Of a stretch of 64,000 nt of DNA, positions 1,030-36,990 are shown piece after piece. The DNA lies in assembly GCA_921293015.1 (NCBI GenBank), contig OV121083.1:33162908-33226907 (forward strand), in the 5' to 3' direction. The stretch's first letter is position 1, and every line of letters begins with the position of its first letter. The stretch is from Phorcus lineatus. Lineage: Eukaryota; Mollusca; Gastropoda; Trochida; Trochidae. The notes under the pieces were generated by a model. That model searched no databases, was not told the DNA's origin, and was given only the letters and a program-made list of their open reading frames with translations. A program made the translations under genes and the position numbers.

Positions 1030-2060
1030 CAAAATGTTTTCTGGTTCCTCTTCTTAAACTTTTCCGATTTTCTTTCATCTTGCAATTTGTTTCCAGATGT
1101 TTCTTACATTTTGAGAAATATTTTCTGATCTATTTCTCACAGTTCAAAACGTTTTCTATTCAATTCTTACCATTCTAAACGTTTACTAATTTATTTATCA
1201 CTTTTGAAAACGTTTTCTAATATATTTTCATTACAATTCAAAACTTTTTCTAAATTATTTCTCACCATTCAAAATGCTTTCTTATTTATTTTCATCACAA
1301 TTCAAAACTTTCTAAATTATTTCTCAAAATTATTTTTTTCTAATCAATGTCTCACCATTCAAAACAATTTGTAATCTATATCTCCTTGCAAAACTTTACT
1401 ATTTCTCACCATTTAAAACGTTTTCTAATATATTTCTCATAATGCAAAACTCCATCTTATCTATTTCTCACCATTTTTAATATTTCATTTTTATTTCTGA
1501 CCATTCAAAACGTTTTCATATATATTTCTCAACATTAATAACGTTTACTGATTCTCAATATCCAAATGTTTCTAACCTATTTCTCACCATTCAAAACGTA
1601 TAATAATCTACATCTCCATGCAAAACGTTTCTCAACATTGAAAACGTTTTATAATCTATTTACCACCACTCAATACTATTTCTCACCAGTCAAATATTTT
1701 TCAAATTATTTATCACCATGCAAAACGTTTATAATTCATATCGTCAAGTAAAACGTTTTGCAGTGAAATCTAACCATACAAAACATGTTCAATTCTTTCT
1801 ATCGCCATTCAAAAAGTTTACTAATTTATTTCTCACCAATCAGAACGGTTTTTAATTTATTTCTCACCATGCAAAACGTTTACTAATTTATTTCTCACCA
1901 TGCACAATTTTTTCAGGTCAATCTTAAACATCTTGAAATACGTTTTGAAAAACAAATCTTATGACGTTAAAACGTTTCGATTTATCTCCTATCAAGCAAA
2001 ACGTTTTCTGCACACTTTTATCTCTTTCTAAACGTTTTTGATTAATGTAAAATGTAAACG
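1030..2060. repeat. Degenerate ~32-bp minisatellite
   Basis: A unit close to TTTCTCACCATGCAAAACG followed by TTTACTAATTTA recurs about every 30-34 bases for roughly 1 kb, some 30 diverged copies. The most regular copies lie at about 1,855-1,910. The hallmark is a CACCATTCAAAACGTTTT-like core, often containing the palindrome AACGTT. Copies differ by substitutions and small indels, so the array is old. The short frames crossing it are repeat artefacts. Confidence 0.85.
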
Positions 2061-3065
2061 TACATCATAAACGTCTTTAAAATAAATCAACTTATTATTT
2101 TAATCTAGATTGTTGTATTTTGTAGTACCTTGAATATCGTACCGTGTCACTTGTGGTACAGTAGCTTGTTTATAAGTCCGGAAACACAAAGTTTAACCCA
2201 ATATTAATTTTCTGACCACCATACATTTATGATAACGTGTATGTAGTTGTCACACTACGAACATTTGATTATGATTTACTCAAGCTCAATATTTTATAAG
2301 GTATATAAGTTGTTAAACAGAGATTAAATGTCTTAACTGAGTATCCAAATCAATTTACGACCAAGGTCTGTCGTTGTTGAACAAGTGATTTCTTCGATTC
2401 ACAACAACAAAATTATACAAATTCATCACATTCATACACAGCCAAACACGAATACAATACTTGTATCTCAGTGTAAGTATGAAATATATGCTCCACATAA
2501 AAAACTTCTGTCCCGAGGTCCGCTGTATGAAAAAAATGATTGTCCCGTCACAAAGTAACGAGATAATATTACTTTTATTACTTATCTAAATTTACCGTAA
2601 TCTGAATGACCTTGTTTTATTAAGATCATTTCCCCATCACCCGACACGCTGTCAGTGTCAAGTCCCGCTAGTACGGACGTAGTGATTGCTTCACCCCGCT
2701 CTCCATTGAGGAAGGCACGTAGCTGATGGGCTAATTCTTGTGTCATGTTAGCCCAGGGTGGAGTCTGGGTACTCTATGACCTTACTTGGCCTCGTGGTCA
2801 GAGGTCATAGGTTATTTCTACCTTGAATTGAGCATTTATAACATTTTAGAAAGGTTACTTAAGTAAAATCTTACAACTTTCTTAATATATCAATTCTTCA
2901 AAAAATGCAAAATTTTAAAAGGAAACTTTGTCAGGCAATTTTGTTTCTTAAACATTAAATTAAAAAAATCCGCTTAGAACTTCAGTCTTAGAATTCGGAT
3001 TTTAAACTACGATAAATCTATAAAAAGAGTCAAAATATAGATAGTATTTTCTTCTGGATATGGTT
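2061..3065. other. Intergenic sequence with a GC-richer patch
   Basis: No gene is recognisable. A GC-richer patch at about 2,635-2,815 stands out from the AT-rich surroundings and contains the small imperfect inverted repeat TAGCCCAGGGTGGAGTCTGGGTA. It could be a worn repeat or a conserved element; the sequence alone does not decide. Confidence 0.4.
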
Positions 3066-3255
3066 TAAACATATTTATTTCAAGAAGAATTGGATTGGTA
3101 AACAAGCCATAGGCTTATGTGAATACCGCTCCAAGATACAAATGTGATATATGTCATGGTGATTTTACAATATATGTATATACAGAAACGACAGTTCATT
3201 ATAAATACAACAAACGCAATGAGTGCAAAAAATTGAAATATAATCAACCAATAAG

Positions 3256-5385
3256 TCATTTTGCAAATCTGCCTGTTAAATTTATAAATTCGTGCACTGA
3301 TGTTAAAAGTTCCATATTTTTGGTAGCGGAACAATTTATGTTTCCGAATAAAACTGATTTTACATCAAAACCTCTATGAAAGTAAAACATTTTGTGTCTT
3401 ATAGTGCTGTAAAGAGGACATATGAAGAAAAAGTGAGTTGAATCCTCATAACAATGGCCACAAGCACAAACGGGTGATTGTGATATGAATCTTTCATACT
3501 TGTGTGCATTTAAGTCGCTGCATTCAAGTCTTAGACGAGTATGTATTATTTGACAAAATCTGCTGCCATAATTTAGGTCAAAGTTACTGTATGTTTCACT
3601 ATCATGGAGGAGAGCATTTTTGAAAGTCAATAAAGATGGCGAATTTCTATGTTCTATCGGCAATGAGTTCCAAAGTTTAACAGCGTCAGGAAGGAAAGAT
3701 CTCGCATAGTTTACAGATTTACAATCTATAGTCTGGAGTTTCGAATCATCACGAAGATTGTAATCAACGACATCCGATATTTTAGGAGGTACCAAGTTGC
3801 TTAGATAGCTGGGTGTATTATGATTAACCATTTTATAGAACAACGTCATTTTATGAACGTATCGTCTATGACATAATGGTTTGCACTTTGTTTCTTTATA
3901 AATCTTATGATGGCTGGTGCCACGAACGGCACCACAGAAAGTTCTCAGTGCATCAAGATTAAGTTTTTCAAGCATATCCGCTTGCTGCTTTGAACAATTA
4001 TCCCATATATGACAACAGTAGTCGAAAACAGGTAGAATGAACTGTTTATATATGGTTTCCAACGTTTTCCGGTTTAATCGATATTTGAGGCTTCTAAGAC
4101 AATTTACCATCGGGGTTACCTTTTTAACAATGTCATGAATTTGATTACTCCAAGAACAATCATGTTGGAATATAAGGCCTAGGTGTTTATGGCTCTGAAC
4201 TGAGTCAATAACATTGTCATTAATGGTTAGATCTGGCATCTGAATTGGTTGTACTTTGCGGGTAAAACGAATCGATTCTGTCTTATTCGGATTGAATGTT
4301 ACTTGCCATTTTTCTGCCCATTCTGCAATTCGCTTCAAGTCGTCATTTATGTCTATGGCTGTTTCGTAGGGGTCATCAATAATCGCGTATAAAGATGTAT
4401 CATCCGCAAAAAGACGTATGTTGCTGTTTATACCCTCAACTATATCATTTATGTACATAATAAATAGGAGTGGTCCTAAAACTGAACCCTGGGGTACACC
4501 TGCAAGGACAGCTTTTTAATCCGACTGAAATCCATTAATTACAACACATTGTTTTCTATTGTCAAGATAACTCTCAAACCATTTTAATAAATCACCCTGT
4601 ATGCCATATCTTTGTAATTTATATATAATGCCTTTGTGCCAAACTTTGTCGAATGCTTTACTTACATCACAAAAAACAGCTTTGATCTCATTTCCTTTAT
4701 CTACTGCTCTAGCTATGAAATCATATAAATACGTCAGTTGATTAGCAGTAGAGTCTCCTGGGGTGAAACCAGACTGGAGATTTGAAAGTATGTCATTATC
4801 CCTGAAATAATTGAAAACATGTTTAAAAACACACTTTTCTAATACCTTTGCAAGGCAACTCGTAAGTGCAACCGGTCTGTAGTTAGAGCAATCATTAACG
4901 CTACCTTTCTTATAAATAGGGACGACAGACGCTTCTTTCCAAACTTGCGGAAAAATCTTTTTTGTAAGCGATAAATTAAAGATTTCTGAGAGGGGAGCGG
5001 CCAGTAATCTGGCATTCATTTTGAAGAACTTATTGCTTATACCGTCAGGACCAGTTGCTTTTGTCGTATCTAGTGATAAAAGTATAACCTGGACTTCATG
5101 TGTATTGAGAATCAACTCTCTTAAAGGATTATTAATGTTAGGAATATCTTCTTCAATATCTTTATCTGGATGAGAAACTTTGGTTTGATTTGTGAAATAT
5201 TCGTTCATCAGGTTTGCAATTTCTGTGCTATCGTCACACAATTTCTTGTCACAGAGAATTTGTGGAAACGATCTTAATGTAGTTTTGTTTTGATTAAAAC
5301 GTTTAATAAGACGCCACCATATTTTTGTACCATGTTTTTCGTTAATCAGTTTATCAATTTGTTCTGTATACAACTGTTTTGCCAT
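3256..5385 (-). pseudogene. LINE reverse transcriptase region, one in-frame stop
   Basis: A frame of about 710 codons interrupted once. Counting from 5,385, visible reverse transcriptase motifs are KATGPDGISNKFFK (109-122), SVVPIYKKGS then NYRPVALTS (153-175), FCDVSKAFDKVW with the first catalytic Asp (238-249), AGVPQGSVLGPLLF (295-308), LFADD with the catalytic Asp pair (325-329), and HLGLIF downstream. The TAA at 4,518-4,516 lies between QSD and KAVLAGVPQGS, inside an otherwise intact domain, so a single substitution would explain it. The C-terminus holds WNSLP and a CACGHC...FFFICP cluster typical of this LINE group. Position 5,385 is not the natural start; the true upstream linker is missing. 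The complementary frames at 3,119-3,379 and 5,290-5,592 are shadows. Confidence 0.9.
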
Positions 5386-6404
5386 TTGTTAGGTATGTGT
5401 TTATTGCAAAGATTTATCAAAGTATTATTCAGTTGGTCTGCTACTAGATTAACGTCTCGAGATGAAAGAATTTCATTGCAATCAAAGGAACTAATTTCGT
5501 TAGATATGGCATCGATGTCAGCTAATTCATACTCGTATATTTTTCTTTTGTACGTTACAGATTTCCTTACATTTTCTTTAAGAGTGACATAAACAGGACA
5601 ATGATCACTACATATGGGGTCAAGAACACCGGAATCTTGTACAAGGGCAACATGTGAAACAAAGATAAGATCGATCAGAGTACTCGAAGTAGGTGTAATC
5701 CTAGTAGGATCAGTAATGATTTGTGACAATCCATTCAATAGCCCAAGTTGTTCAATTCTGTTTGAATTTGTGTTTAGAACATCTTCATTAAAGTCACCAG
5801 TTACAATCGTAATCAAATCAAGATCAACGGCATTAGAGATGGATTCTTCTATTAAATCCCAATAAGCATCACTTTTGTCTGCTCTGTAAAATGTTCCAAT
5901 AATGTAAGAGCGTTTTTTACATCTACTTTTAACCCATAATGCTTCTAGACCATGTAGGTTTAAATTATTCATACACTCATAAATCAAATAATTTTTAATA
6001 TATACAGCCACTCCTCCACCCCTTGTATGTCTGTCTTTTCTAAGTGGTAAATGATAACCTGGTATTTCTATATCATTACTACCGATGCCTTTGTGTAACC
6101 ATGATTCTGTAATACAAATCACATCATAGGGTTCAAGTTCGGCTTGAATTATATCTAGCTTATCTCTTAAGCTACGTACATTTAAATGTATAATTTTAAG
6201 ATCAGAGGTATGCAATGGTCCTGGATTTGGGTGAACATCACCACAGATCAATAGAAGAAAGGTGATAAGCAAGGACACATGGCTGTTATAAATACATAAA
6301 ATTGAGAAATGATAACATTGTTTTCTAAATTTAAAGGCAGATTTGCTATGAAGATGACAAACAAAAGAACCCACCGCTTGTCTATATTGCACAATATCAA
6401 CCAT
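5346..6404 (-). pseudogene. LINE endonuclease region with N-terminal 2A-like motif
   Basis: From the ATG at 6,404-6,402 the frame runs 352 codons to a stop at 5,346. Residues about 37-54 are hydrophobic and lead straight into GDVHPNPGP (residues 55-63), which resembles the 2A ribosome-skipping signature D-V-E-x-N-P-G-P except that E is H. An exonuclease/endonuclease/phosphatase domain follows with its expected landmarks: HLNVRS (Asn75), ITESW (Glu100), TRGGGVA (~128-133), GDFNED (203-208), LIDLIF (Asp245) and SDHCPV (266-271). In the family this enzyme nicks target DNA to prime reverse transcription. The frame ends prematurely: a few codons after HIPNK it hits a stop where the linker to the reverse transcriptase should continue. 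An earlier non-ATG start is possible but unnecessary. Confidence 0.88.
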
Positions 6405-7500
6405 TGTCAAACAGTAATAAAGATATATCAAGGCGGTAGGGTTCGTACAATGAGCTAAAATGGCAAATGCAACTAATAAATGTTGTTAGTTCACACTCAT
6501 GTGGCATTACCTCATTTTCAAAATTGCAAAGTAATGAGACAAAATATACATTGCAGTCTGTGTTTTGAGAACAAAAACCATATATACACGAAAAAGTGGA
6601 CTTCAGAAAGAAGTCAACATTGAAGTGATTTAGAAAACTGAAAATAAAAAGAAGTAATAATAACAAGTTATGAGTGAGACATTTGGAGAAGTATATATAT
6701 AGTTGTAATAGGTGATGTTTTTATTGCGAATAGACTTATGGAATAGAGCAATGATTTAACTTACTGCCTAGAAAATAAGCATGAAATCATTAAGAATATT
6801 GTTATCTAATTGTGTTTTTGTTTAATTGTATCTGTTACGGTGTTTCATAGGACTTGCTGATGACATCTCATGTTCCGTGTTTAGCAAGATGCACGTGCAA
6901 AGACAGATATTCTGTATAGCAAGGACTTGTGTCGTGTTGGCAATGACAAGTGTAAAATGGATTGGGATTATTTTAACATTCGTAAGTACTTTAACTCTCT
7001 ATATATTATATGAATAGTGCATAAATTATTCTACAGTATGAGAATATATAGTATGATATTTGCTGTTTGGCTAATAATGTTTAAGGATGATAACGGTCCA
7101 TTATTTTGCGAGTTAAATATGTTAACATGTGTTTTATGGGGTACAGTAATAGGTGAGAAATTTACATATTGGAAGTAGCTTAAACAAACCACGTAATGCT
7201 TGAAGATATAGAGGTTCAGTCTTAAACATAATTAAAAGTTTAGAGCAAAAGAGGAAGTTAAATGACCACAAAAATTATAAACACAAATACTACATTCTTA
7301 TTCCAGTAATTCCCTCGTCTATATACAAAGGTATTGGTGTTCGTATATAATGTCTACGCTTTATACCATTTTGTCAAACTTATAAATAAATATACACGTG
7401 TAAATGACTGCTGTGCATATTCTATATTTTGCAAAACATGACATACAATCAAATTTCAATTTTAGATTGTACTAACACACAATTGAAAATCCATCAACTA
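6405..7500. other. AT-rich sequence, possibly LINE 5' leader then unique DNA
   Basis: Directly upstream (minus-strand sense) of the endonuclease start. The first few hundred bases may be the 5' untranslated leader of the LINE, but no promoter motif or duplicated target site was found to set a boundary. Nothing coding was recognised. Confidence 0.35.
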
Positions 7501-11150: not shown

Positions 11151-12084
11151 GGAGTTCACTCAATCTCATTAAAATAATATCTAACATTGCTGCACTACGT
11201 TACGCAGATTATAGATCTCACTAGACTCCCTTACTGAAGCCGTCAGGTTAACCTTTGCTTCAGTTTGACCTCAAAATCTCATTGGCTTGCCGGAGATACG
11301 TTCAAGCAATCAAAATGTGCGTCTCTTGACGGCCTTCAATGAGATTGCAATTAAATCCTGATGTTGAAGTTAAAACTCTTATAAATATTCGATTTTACAG
11401 AGAACAAGTTGAAGTCATTTGCATATGTCTATTAATACCATTTAACCCAGCAGATCTACTTATAACATTTCAGTCTTTAACAAAACAAGGGTCAATCTCA
11501 TTAGCATATAAAAGTCGCATATGACTAATATATAATTATCAAGAAACTTAGTATTGGTATATATATATATGTTTTGGTTGTTTTTGTTTCTCAGCATGTT
11601 TATGATTAATTTGTTTCACGAAATTTGAAATTATTCAACGATTATTACAAACTAAAAGACGAAACGTTTATTCAACGTAACTGTTTCCAGAATAAGCATT
11701 TGGATTGATACGGTATACTAAAGGATAACGTTGAGGAATGCAGTTTTTGCTTTGCTAAAGATAACTCCATAACTTCGATTTGACTTGTTTGTCCAACAAA
11801 CCAAGCTAGGGTAAATTGAATATACATAAAATACATTAATTTAGGTTTTTAGGCAGTTTGACATTCGGAAAACATTCGAAAATTTTTGGTTTCCGAGATC
11901 TGAAAAGCGTACAAGCGAAATGCAACTCGTCGGCACCAAAGATTACGGGGCGAATTTGCTGATTGGCTGATTTGAATTATGTCAGAGGCAAACCTGACGG
12001 CTCACGTAACGGAGCCTGGTGAGATCTACAGGCGTAATGTAGTGGAGCATGTAGATTTCATTTCAATGAGATTGGGAGTTCACT
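11151..12084. mobile_element. Non-autonomous inverted-repeat DNA transposon with 10-bp target duplication
   Basis: The element spans 11,161-12,074 (914 bp). It begins CAATCTCATTAAAAT and ends, read inward on the complement, CAATCTCATTGAAAT. Similarity between the two arms continues for at least about 95 bases and weakly to about 150-190. Shared words include CACTACRTTACGC, TAGATCTCAC and GCCGTCAGGTT. Both sides carry the identical 10-mer GGAGTTCACT (11,151-11,160 and 12,075-12,084), a perfect target-site duplication. The word AATCTCATTR recurs inside at 11,275-11,284, 11,337-11,346 (inverted) and 11,494-11,503, as expected for subterminal transposase-binding repeats. No transposase frame is present, so movement would need a partner in trans. 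A 9-11-base duplication with long inverted repeats resembles Mutator-like elements, but the superfamily is not established. Confidence 0.85.
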
Positions 12085-29050: not shown

Positions 29051-36189
<7,139 letters not shown>

Positions 36190-36781
36190 AGAGGACAGTC
36201 AGGACAGTGCTTGCAACGGTTTAGACAGGATTGGTAACAGAATGGATAGTACTGGCAACGGTTTGGACAGGATTTGTAACAGAATGGATAGTACTGGCAA
36301 CGGTTTAGACAAGATTGGTAACAGAATGGATAGTACTGGCAACGGTTTGGACAGGATTTGTAACAGAATGGATAGTACTGGCAACGGTTTAGACTAGATT
36401 GGTAACAGAATGAATAGTACTGGCAACGGTTTGGACAGGATTTGTAACAGAATGGATAGTACTGGCAACGGTTTGGACAGGATTTGTAACAGAATGAATA
36501 GTACTGGCAACGGTTTAGACAGGATTTGCAACAGAATGGATAGTACTGCATGGCAACGGTTTGGACAGGATTTGTAACAGAATGGGTAGTACTGGCAACG
36601 GTTTGGAAAGGATTGGTAACAGAATGGATAGTACCGGCAACGGTTTGGACAGGATTTGTAACAGAATGGATAGTACTGGCAACGGTTTGGACAGAATTGG
36701 TTACCGAATTGATGGTACAGGCAACGGTTTGAATGGTATTGGTAACAGAATGGATAGTACTGTCAACGGTTTGGACAGAAT
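36190..36781. repeat. 42-bp minisatellite, about 14 units
   Basis: The word CAACGGTTT recurs at exact 42-base steps with ACG starting at 36,216, 36,258 and so on to 36,510. After a 4-base insertion (ACTGCATGGCAA) it runs from 36,556 to 36,766. Unit: GCAACGGTTTGGACAGGAT then TTGTAACAGAATGGATAGTACTG. Units differ at few positions, so the array is young or homogenised. Because 42 is a multiple of three and neither affected frame has a stop, a 247-codon minus-strand frame (36,165-36,908) stays open. It reads TVASTIHSVTNPVQ repeats, changing to another repeat peptide after the insertion, and is not credited as a gene. Confidence 0.95.
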
Positions 36782-36990
36782 TACCTTCACCGACCAAACA
36801 CCCAGGTTTTGCCTTGGCCATCACGCTCCGATAGAGCATCCATGGGACAATTTGGGAAGACGACTTAGACGTCGCCCACAGCAACCAGTCATCAGCTGGA
36901 ACAAGCACTCACTACACGAAGAGTGGCAACGTATCCCGAATGATCATCTGACGTCTTTCCTTTTCCATGAGAAGACGTGTCTAGCTTGAA
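36782..36990 (+). pseudogene. Tc1/mariner transposase C-terminal scrap
   Basis: In the frame 36,811-36,990 the translation reads APIEHPWDNLGRRLRRRPQQP and, after a gap, LHEEWQRIP. This is the C-terminal catalytic neighbourhood of Tc1-like transposases; the Glu of IEH is the E of the DD34E triad. Just upstream another frame reads VLPWPSRS (36,813-36,836), the segment that normally precedes PDLSPIEH. About 14 bases encoding PDLSP-like residues are therefore missing and the frame is shifted. The two Asp-bearing upstream domains and both terminal repeats are absent. The scrap abuts the 42-bp array directly. It is a dead relic. Confidence 0.8.

Follow-up and report, generated by a model that had tools for sequence, protein, structure and literature searches.

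Within a 64,000-nucleotide stretch of the Phorcus lineatus genome (hereafter, the window), 914 bp bounded by similar inverted ends and flanked by a repeated decamer raise the question of what kind of mobile element they represent and which enzyme moves it. A first-pass annotation had described the locus as a 914-bp inverted-repeat transposon with a perfect 10-bp target-site duplication (TSD), and both its coordinates and its description proved exact. The features are given below; copy counts refer to the 30 aligned genome copies described in the text.

11161..12074, plus strand: complete non-autonomous element, 914 bp; its ends match those of other genome copies
11151..11160, no strand: left TSD GGAGTTCACT, one half of an exact 10-bp repeat that directly abuts the two element ends
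12075..12084, no strand: right TSD GGAGTTCACT, identical to the left copy
11161..11257, plus strand: left terminal inverted repeat (TIR), starting CAATCTCATTAAAAT; its 97 bp pair with the 92 bp of the right TIR
11983..12074, minus strand: right TIR, starting CAATCTCATTGAAAT on the minus strand, delimited by arm alignment; a repeat search gave two gapless arms
11274..11283, plus strand: internal terminus-like motif AAATCTCATT, exact in 16 of 30 copies
11338..11347, minus strand: internal terminus-like motif, AATGAGATTG on the plus strand; this window form is found in 3 of 30 copies
11493..11502, plus strand: internal terminus-like motif CAATCTCATT, exact in 24 of 30 copies

The first bases of the element are CAATCTCATT and the last AATGAGATTG. 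Its two TIRs, of 97 and 92 bp, were identical at 78 of 98 alignment columns, and their local score of 88 lay far above the maximum of 25 reached among 2000 controls made by shuffling the left arm in two-base blocks, in agreement with the inverted similarity over about 95 bases or more noticed at first pass. An exact 10-mer repeat at a spacing of 914 was present at 3 of 63,066 window positions, the element's own included. The internal terminus-like motifs lie at positions 114, 178 and 333 of the majority sequence of the 912-bp type, and the commonest family form of the second is AAAGAGATTG, carried by 14 of the 30 copies. These three motifs are possibly transposase sites, or else remnants of two smaller elements that fused; fusion is a weak idea only, since the motif near position 187 is imperfect in most copies.

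We searched the genome (958 Mb, 74 contigs) with the element and scored 40 copies of the 2411 first-look candidates. Both ends of the 914-bp element were shared by 36 of the 40, the window's own copy included, which ran end to end (from query base 8 or less to 912 or more) at 88–100% identity. A core 40-mer, allowing up to three mismatches, was found at 322 genome places (166 + 156), and its reversed control at none (0 + 0). Alignment of 30 copies in one orientation yielded a 912-bp majority sequence, from which the copies diverge by 2.5–6.7%; the closest pair (L014 and L015) is 99.0% identical. Precise ends with TIRs are thus common to dispersed copies, as in a TIR transposon.

Insertion of the copies was examined at 30 loci, with the ends fixed by sequence and duplication lengths of 6–12 bp allowed. 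Exact duplications were 9 bp long at 12 loci and 10 bp long at eight, and a further seven loci carried duplications with one mismatch (five of 9 bp and two of 10 bp). The first-pass annotation had proposed testing whether flanks of other copies always duplicate 9–11 bases, and a 9- or 10-bp duplication with at most one mismatch was found at 27 of the 30 loci, 20 of them exact. Both of its refuting conditions, discordant boundaries in other copies and flanks lacking a duplication, were thus checked with a result favourable to it. Two of the remaining three have duplications with two mismatches, and the third (L021), with an eroded left end, has none. When the left flank of one copy was combined with the right flank of another, none of 870 combinations gave a duplication. 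Base counts at each position of the 27 duplications revealed no obvious target motif.

A broader collection was assembled from convergent pairs: 55 distinct pairs from loci up to L080, 60–2300 bp apart, were kept for TSD-like flanks of at least 8 bp with at most two mismatches. Their exact duplications were 9 bp long in 20 cases and 10 bp in nine, with no other length, and two of the inexact ones are best read as 8 bp. Because these pairs were chosen for TSD-like flanks, they give no rate and may include chance pairs.

Empty sites were sought with 38 joined-flank queries against about 353 kb of genome sequence, and two long alignments across the junction were inspected. The paralogous empty site for L012 lies in a repeat copy (L048/L049, one place) and has a single GAAAACCGG where the occupied site has the duplicated GAAAACCTG, at 82% identity. 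For L018, the empty counterpart is a repeat copy in L086, which shows CATGAAAAC just once where the occupied site has TATAAAAAC, at 76% identity; the one-base gap at this junction is an artefact of flank joining. Shorter matches across the L012 and L013 junctions were also present. A narrow, fixed TSD length and empty sites with one target copy are again what TIR transposons display. Taken together, the copies, their shared ends, the duplications and the empty sites back the first-pass proposal of a non-autonomous inverted-repeat family, and the 914-bp element is itself a member of an abundant family of non-autonomous inverted-repeat DNA transposons.

Elements with sharply defined ends, TIRs, a target duplication and empty sites insert by a cut-and-paste reaction. 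The family displays all four, with a duplication of 9/10 bp, and is almost certainly a non-autonomous, MITE-like cut-and-paste DNA transposon. Its lack of coding capacity agrees with this. The longest open frame in the majority sequence of the 30 copies is 90 aa, and ten frames compared with Pfam (two of the 912-bp type, the other eight belonging to the like-ended elements L068, L064, L063 and L092) matched no transposase family, giving two weak, below-cut-off matches to DUF5952 and Nodulin_late. The frames examined therefore hold no transposase coding capacity, as expected of a non-autonomous element.

Whether the family is new had been raised as a possibility at first pass. The 15-base terminal strings had no match in the literature searched, with Repbase outside that search, and the literature matches listed for the 10-base terminal string together with 'mite' were all on unrelated subjects. 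Repbase files unclassified non-autonomous families by TSD length. We regard the family, for now, as new but the kind of element as a known one.

The same ends also delimit elements of other sizes. In all, 6339 genome places (3174 + 3165) carry the terminal 14-mer CAATCTCATTRAAA, compared with 69 (40 + 29) for its reversed control. Among 100 places listed, convergent pairs lay 72–111, 274, 390, 543, 634, 798–885, 1114–1120, 1443 and 2053 bp apart. A 9–10-bp duplication with up to two mismatches accompanies most of the pairs read; it is absent in L063 (2053 bp), L067 (634 bp), L070 (274 bp), L077 (74 bp) and L079 (101 bp). The 390-bp element is the 914-bp type with its middle deleted, and the 1114–1120-bp elements have the same terminal bases, a different interior and TIRs of about 100 bp. 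Two 1120-bp copies are 99.6% identical (0.4% different), so this branch moved recently. The smallest elements, from about 72 bp, consist of two family ends back to back and little more.

L033 1501-1572, L074 159-244, L076 162-243 and L078 172-251: very small elements, 72–86 bp

The duplication is an exact 9/10 bp in L074 and L078, and has one mismatch in L076 and two in L033. These elements make up a large, partly recent non-autonomous family of this genome, to which thousands of short repeats in its annotation would be attributable.

We propose that a transposase made elsewhere would recognise the terminus CAATCTCATTRAAAT together with part of the ~95-bp arms at both ends, excise the element and insert it into a target opened by staggered cuts 9 or 10 bp apart, the 9/10-bp duplication then arising through gap repair. 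Mobilisation would accordingly be in trans, and we looked for an autonomous partner among eight convergent neighbours lying 1.3–12 kb apart in four partial place listings. A 6.5-kb pair (C1:439280, L061) combines the left end of one element with the right end of a distinct copy of 914 bp, and a 5.7-kb pair (C1:12272088, L062) starts with a 95-bp element. The 2053-bp pair was rejected for want of a duplication, and the 1443-bp element (L064) has a duplication with one mismatch and no transposase match. On C7, a 3181-bp pair (L092) with the exact TSD GTGAACAGA is an 1114-type element with two extra stretches and no transposase match; by eye, the two stretches have inverted ends of their own. The pair of about 1.6 kb at C1:46997445 is, over the 801 bases read, a copy of the 914-bp type as far as position 712, followed by unrelated DNA. 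The two further pairs span 9.2 kb (C2:48470184) and 10.4 kb (C1:13193254).

We also inspected by eye 1.5 kb inside 16 unpaired ends, and checked one frame with Pfam. That frame, within 1.5 kb of the unpaired end of L043, encodes a Sleeping-Beauty-like (Tc1) helix-turn-helix, which scored 36 bits with PF25787 (cut-off 43) and above the cut-off with PF13551. L062 has a helix-turn-helix frame that is Tc1-like by eye, and a frame in L061, pogo-like by eye, had no Pfam match. Tc1/mariner elements duplicate TA, so we take these frames to be putative separate insertions. A longer terminus pattern had no matches in viral contigs. Altogether, no element combining these ends with its own transposase was found among the pairs and transposase loci read.

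Proximity to known transposases provided a weak test. Among the ends and arms listed (375 places: 100, 100, 75 and 100 from four partial, partly overlapping lists), one lay within 12 kb of any of 179 listed MULE, KDZ or P-like places, compared with 1.7 expected at random; because the lists are partial, a rare partner could be missed by this comparison. The single near place, C5:52331338, is 5.9 kb from a MULE scoring like the G-ended L084 group.

The first-pass annotation had suggested Mutator-like mobilisation from the duplication length and the long arms. Only these two points speak for it: no transposase turned up between such ends, and the eight MULEs of this genome with resolved ends have different ones. 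According to PMC6446971, MULE TSDs are in general 8–11 bp long, a range that includes the family's 9 or 10 bp, and TIR length varies widely among MULEs. Long TIRs are a common, though not universal, MULE trait, and the family's arms measure 97/92 bp in the window's element and about 100 bp in the 1114–1120-bp elements. Judged by TSD length alone, the enzyme is probably a transposase of the Mutator/IS256 clade.

MULE transposases are plentiful in this genome: all 150 scored candidates (of 521 at first look) matched, many of them open. From these matches, which number at least 150, we read 11 loci of several score classes, one copy each, and worked out ends and TSD in eight (L081–L084, L086, L088, L090 and L093), seven as the best-scoring TIR-plus-TSD pair found by script and L090 by eye. 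All eight begin with G, with a TSD of 8 bp in six and 9 bp in two; none has a 10-bp TSD or CA...TG ends, in keeping with the first-pass remark that CA...TG is unusual for a MULE. Most of their arms start with GG, and single arms of L082, L083 and L088 with GA or GC. Frames of L081, L084, L090 and L093 contain FLYWCH and MULE domains, and those of L082 and L083 a MULE domain. The other three loci (L085, L087 and L089) showed no convergent pair of family ends in the 4 kb read. Two candidates were set aside as partners: L090 has CAATCTCATT inside its arms, its true ends lying further out (GG..., with the 8-bp TSD CCTACCTC), and in L088 an exact AATGAGATTG is internal, not terminal. The MULE arms of L090 (about 1101–3123) also carry a near-tandem CCCCTACAnTCTCATTA motif, including the internal CAATCTCATT.

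The G-ended MULEs of this genome are therefore, like the family, TIR elements, with an 8–9-bp duplication, but they carry a transposase frame and their ends are unlike the family's CAATCTCATT. Against the Mutator reading stand the CAA (CA...TG) ends of the family, the different ends of the sampled MULEs and the failure to find a partner; among the 11 loci read of at least 150, no MULE-encoding element shared the family's ends. We do not claim MULE membership for the family, although the class may still apply, as the sample covers 11 of at least 150 matches. The lineage of the enzyme would appear to differ from that of the G-ended MULEs sampled here, and our best guess at the mobiliser is a MULE from a lineage outside the sample. 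The partner may lie among the other MULE copies, be rare, or be extinct.

Published animal MULEs, for which mixed TSD lengths are documented, are among the closest parallels. According to PMC3169594, the MITE-like Tm1 elements (Phantom MULE) of root-knot nematodes resemble the family in being non-autonomous and in having many sizes on one set of ends, inverted arms, and duplications of 8–10 bp, mostly 9, without a target consensus; they differ in their foldback-type composite arms and MULE-encoding member, whereas the family has simple arms, CAATCTCATT ends and no partner found. In PMC5225508, the Aedes aegypti MULEs Muta1 and Muta5 likewise have duplications of mixed length (8 or 9 bp, reported for Muta1), arms of 145 and 151 bp and, for Muta5, more than 200 derivative elements; unlike the family, they have subterminal tandem repeats, a transposase gene and duplications of 8/9 rather than 9/10 bp.

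The same transposon could instead be mobilised by another known superfamily, KDZ (Kyakuja-Dileera-Zisupton), P or hAT, although we think this unlikely. Ends of hAT and P elements also often start with CA, and KDZ and P-like transposases exist in the genome, the former as 18 matched stretches and the latter at 11 places, five of which share one score and an open frame of 872 aa. Kyakuja ends are CA..TG, as in the family, but its duplications are 7–8 bp and it is described as being without TIRs in PMC12730594. Duplication length argues against all three superfamilies: it is 7 or 8 bp in KDZ (PMC12730594) and about 8 bp in P and hAT (PMC3706591), whereas the family's exact duplications were 9 or 10 bp in 20 of 20 cases at the 30 loci, with 6–12 bp allowed, and in all 29 cases of the wider set, whose selection shut out 7 bp. 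Nor did the one P-like copy read (of 11 places, over 6.7 kb, in which its own ends were also not found) contain convergent family ends. This copy (L091 with L094 and L095, C2:65238300-65245000) holds an 872-aa P-like frame with three TNP-like domains, on which a second frame of 384 aa, with no Pfam match, converges.

An undescribed superfamily whose transposase combines CA...TG ends with a 9–10-bp stagger would account for a combination present in no group compared here, and for the failure to find a partner among the MULE and P-like copies read. We give this little credence: the search for a partner did not go deep, covering 11 of at least 150 MULE matches and one P-like copy, and TSD length alone already fits MULEs. 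We think it equally unlikely that an undescribed transposase lineage, whether a deep branch of the MULEs or a new superfamily, cuts with a 9/10-bp stagger, recognises CA...TG ends and moves the CAATCTCATT-ended elements, which number in the thousands and go down to ~72 bp. That the inverted repeat arose by chance, or that the element's borders are uncertain, could be entertained when only one pair of similar arms was known, but the copies, shared borders, duplications and empty sites refute this reading and leave it a negligible probability.

With a Mutator-related transposase as the preferred mobiliser, the family poses a clear question, namely which transposase gives a 9/10-bp stagger with CA...TG ends, and its copies are enough to answer it.

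Three other features of the window were recorded. A non-LTR retrotransposon in pieces occupies positions 3256–6485 on the minus strand, in which PF03372 marks an endonuclease frame and PF00078 two reverse-transcriptase frames. Positions 36202–36782 hold 13.7 copies of a 42-bp tandem repeat, with one overlapping open frame per strand, and positions 31273–31443 a perfect (GA) array of 85.5 copies.
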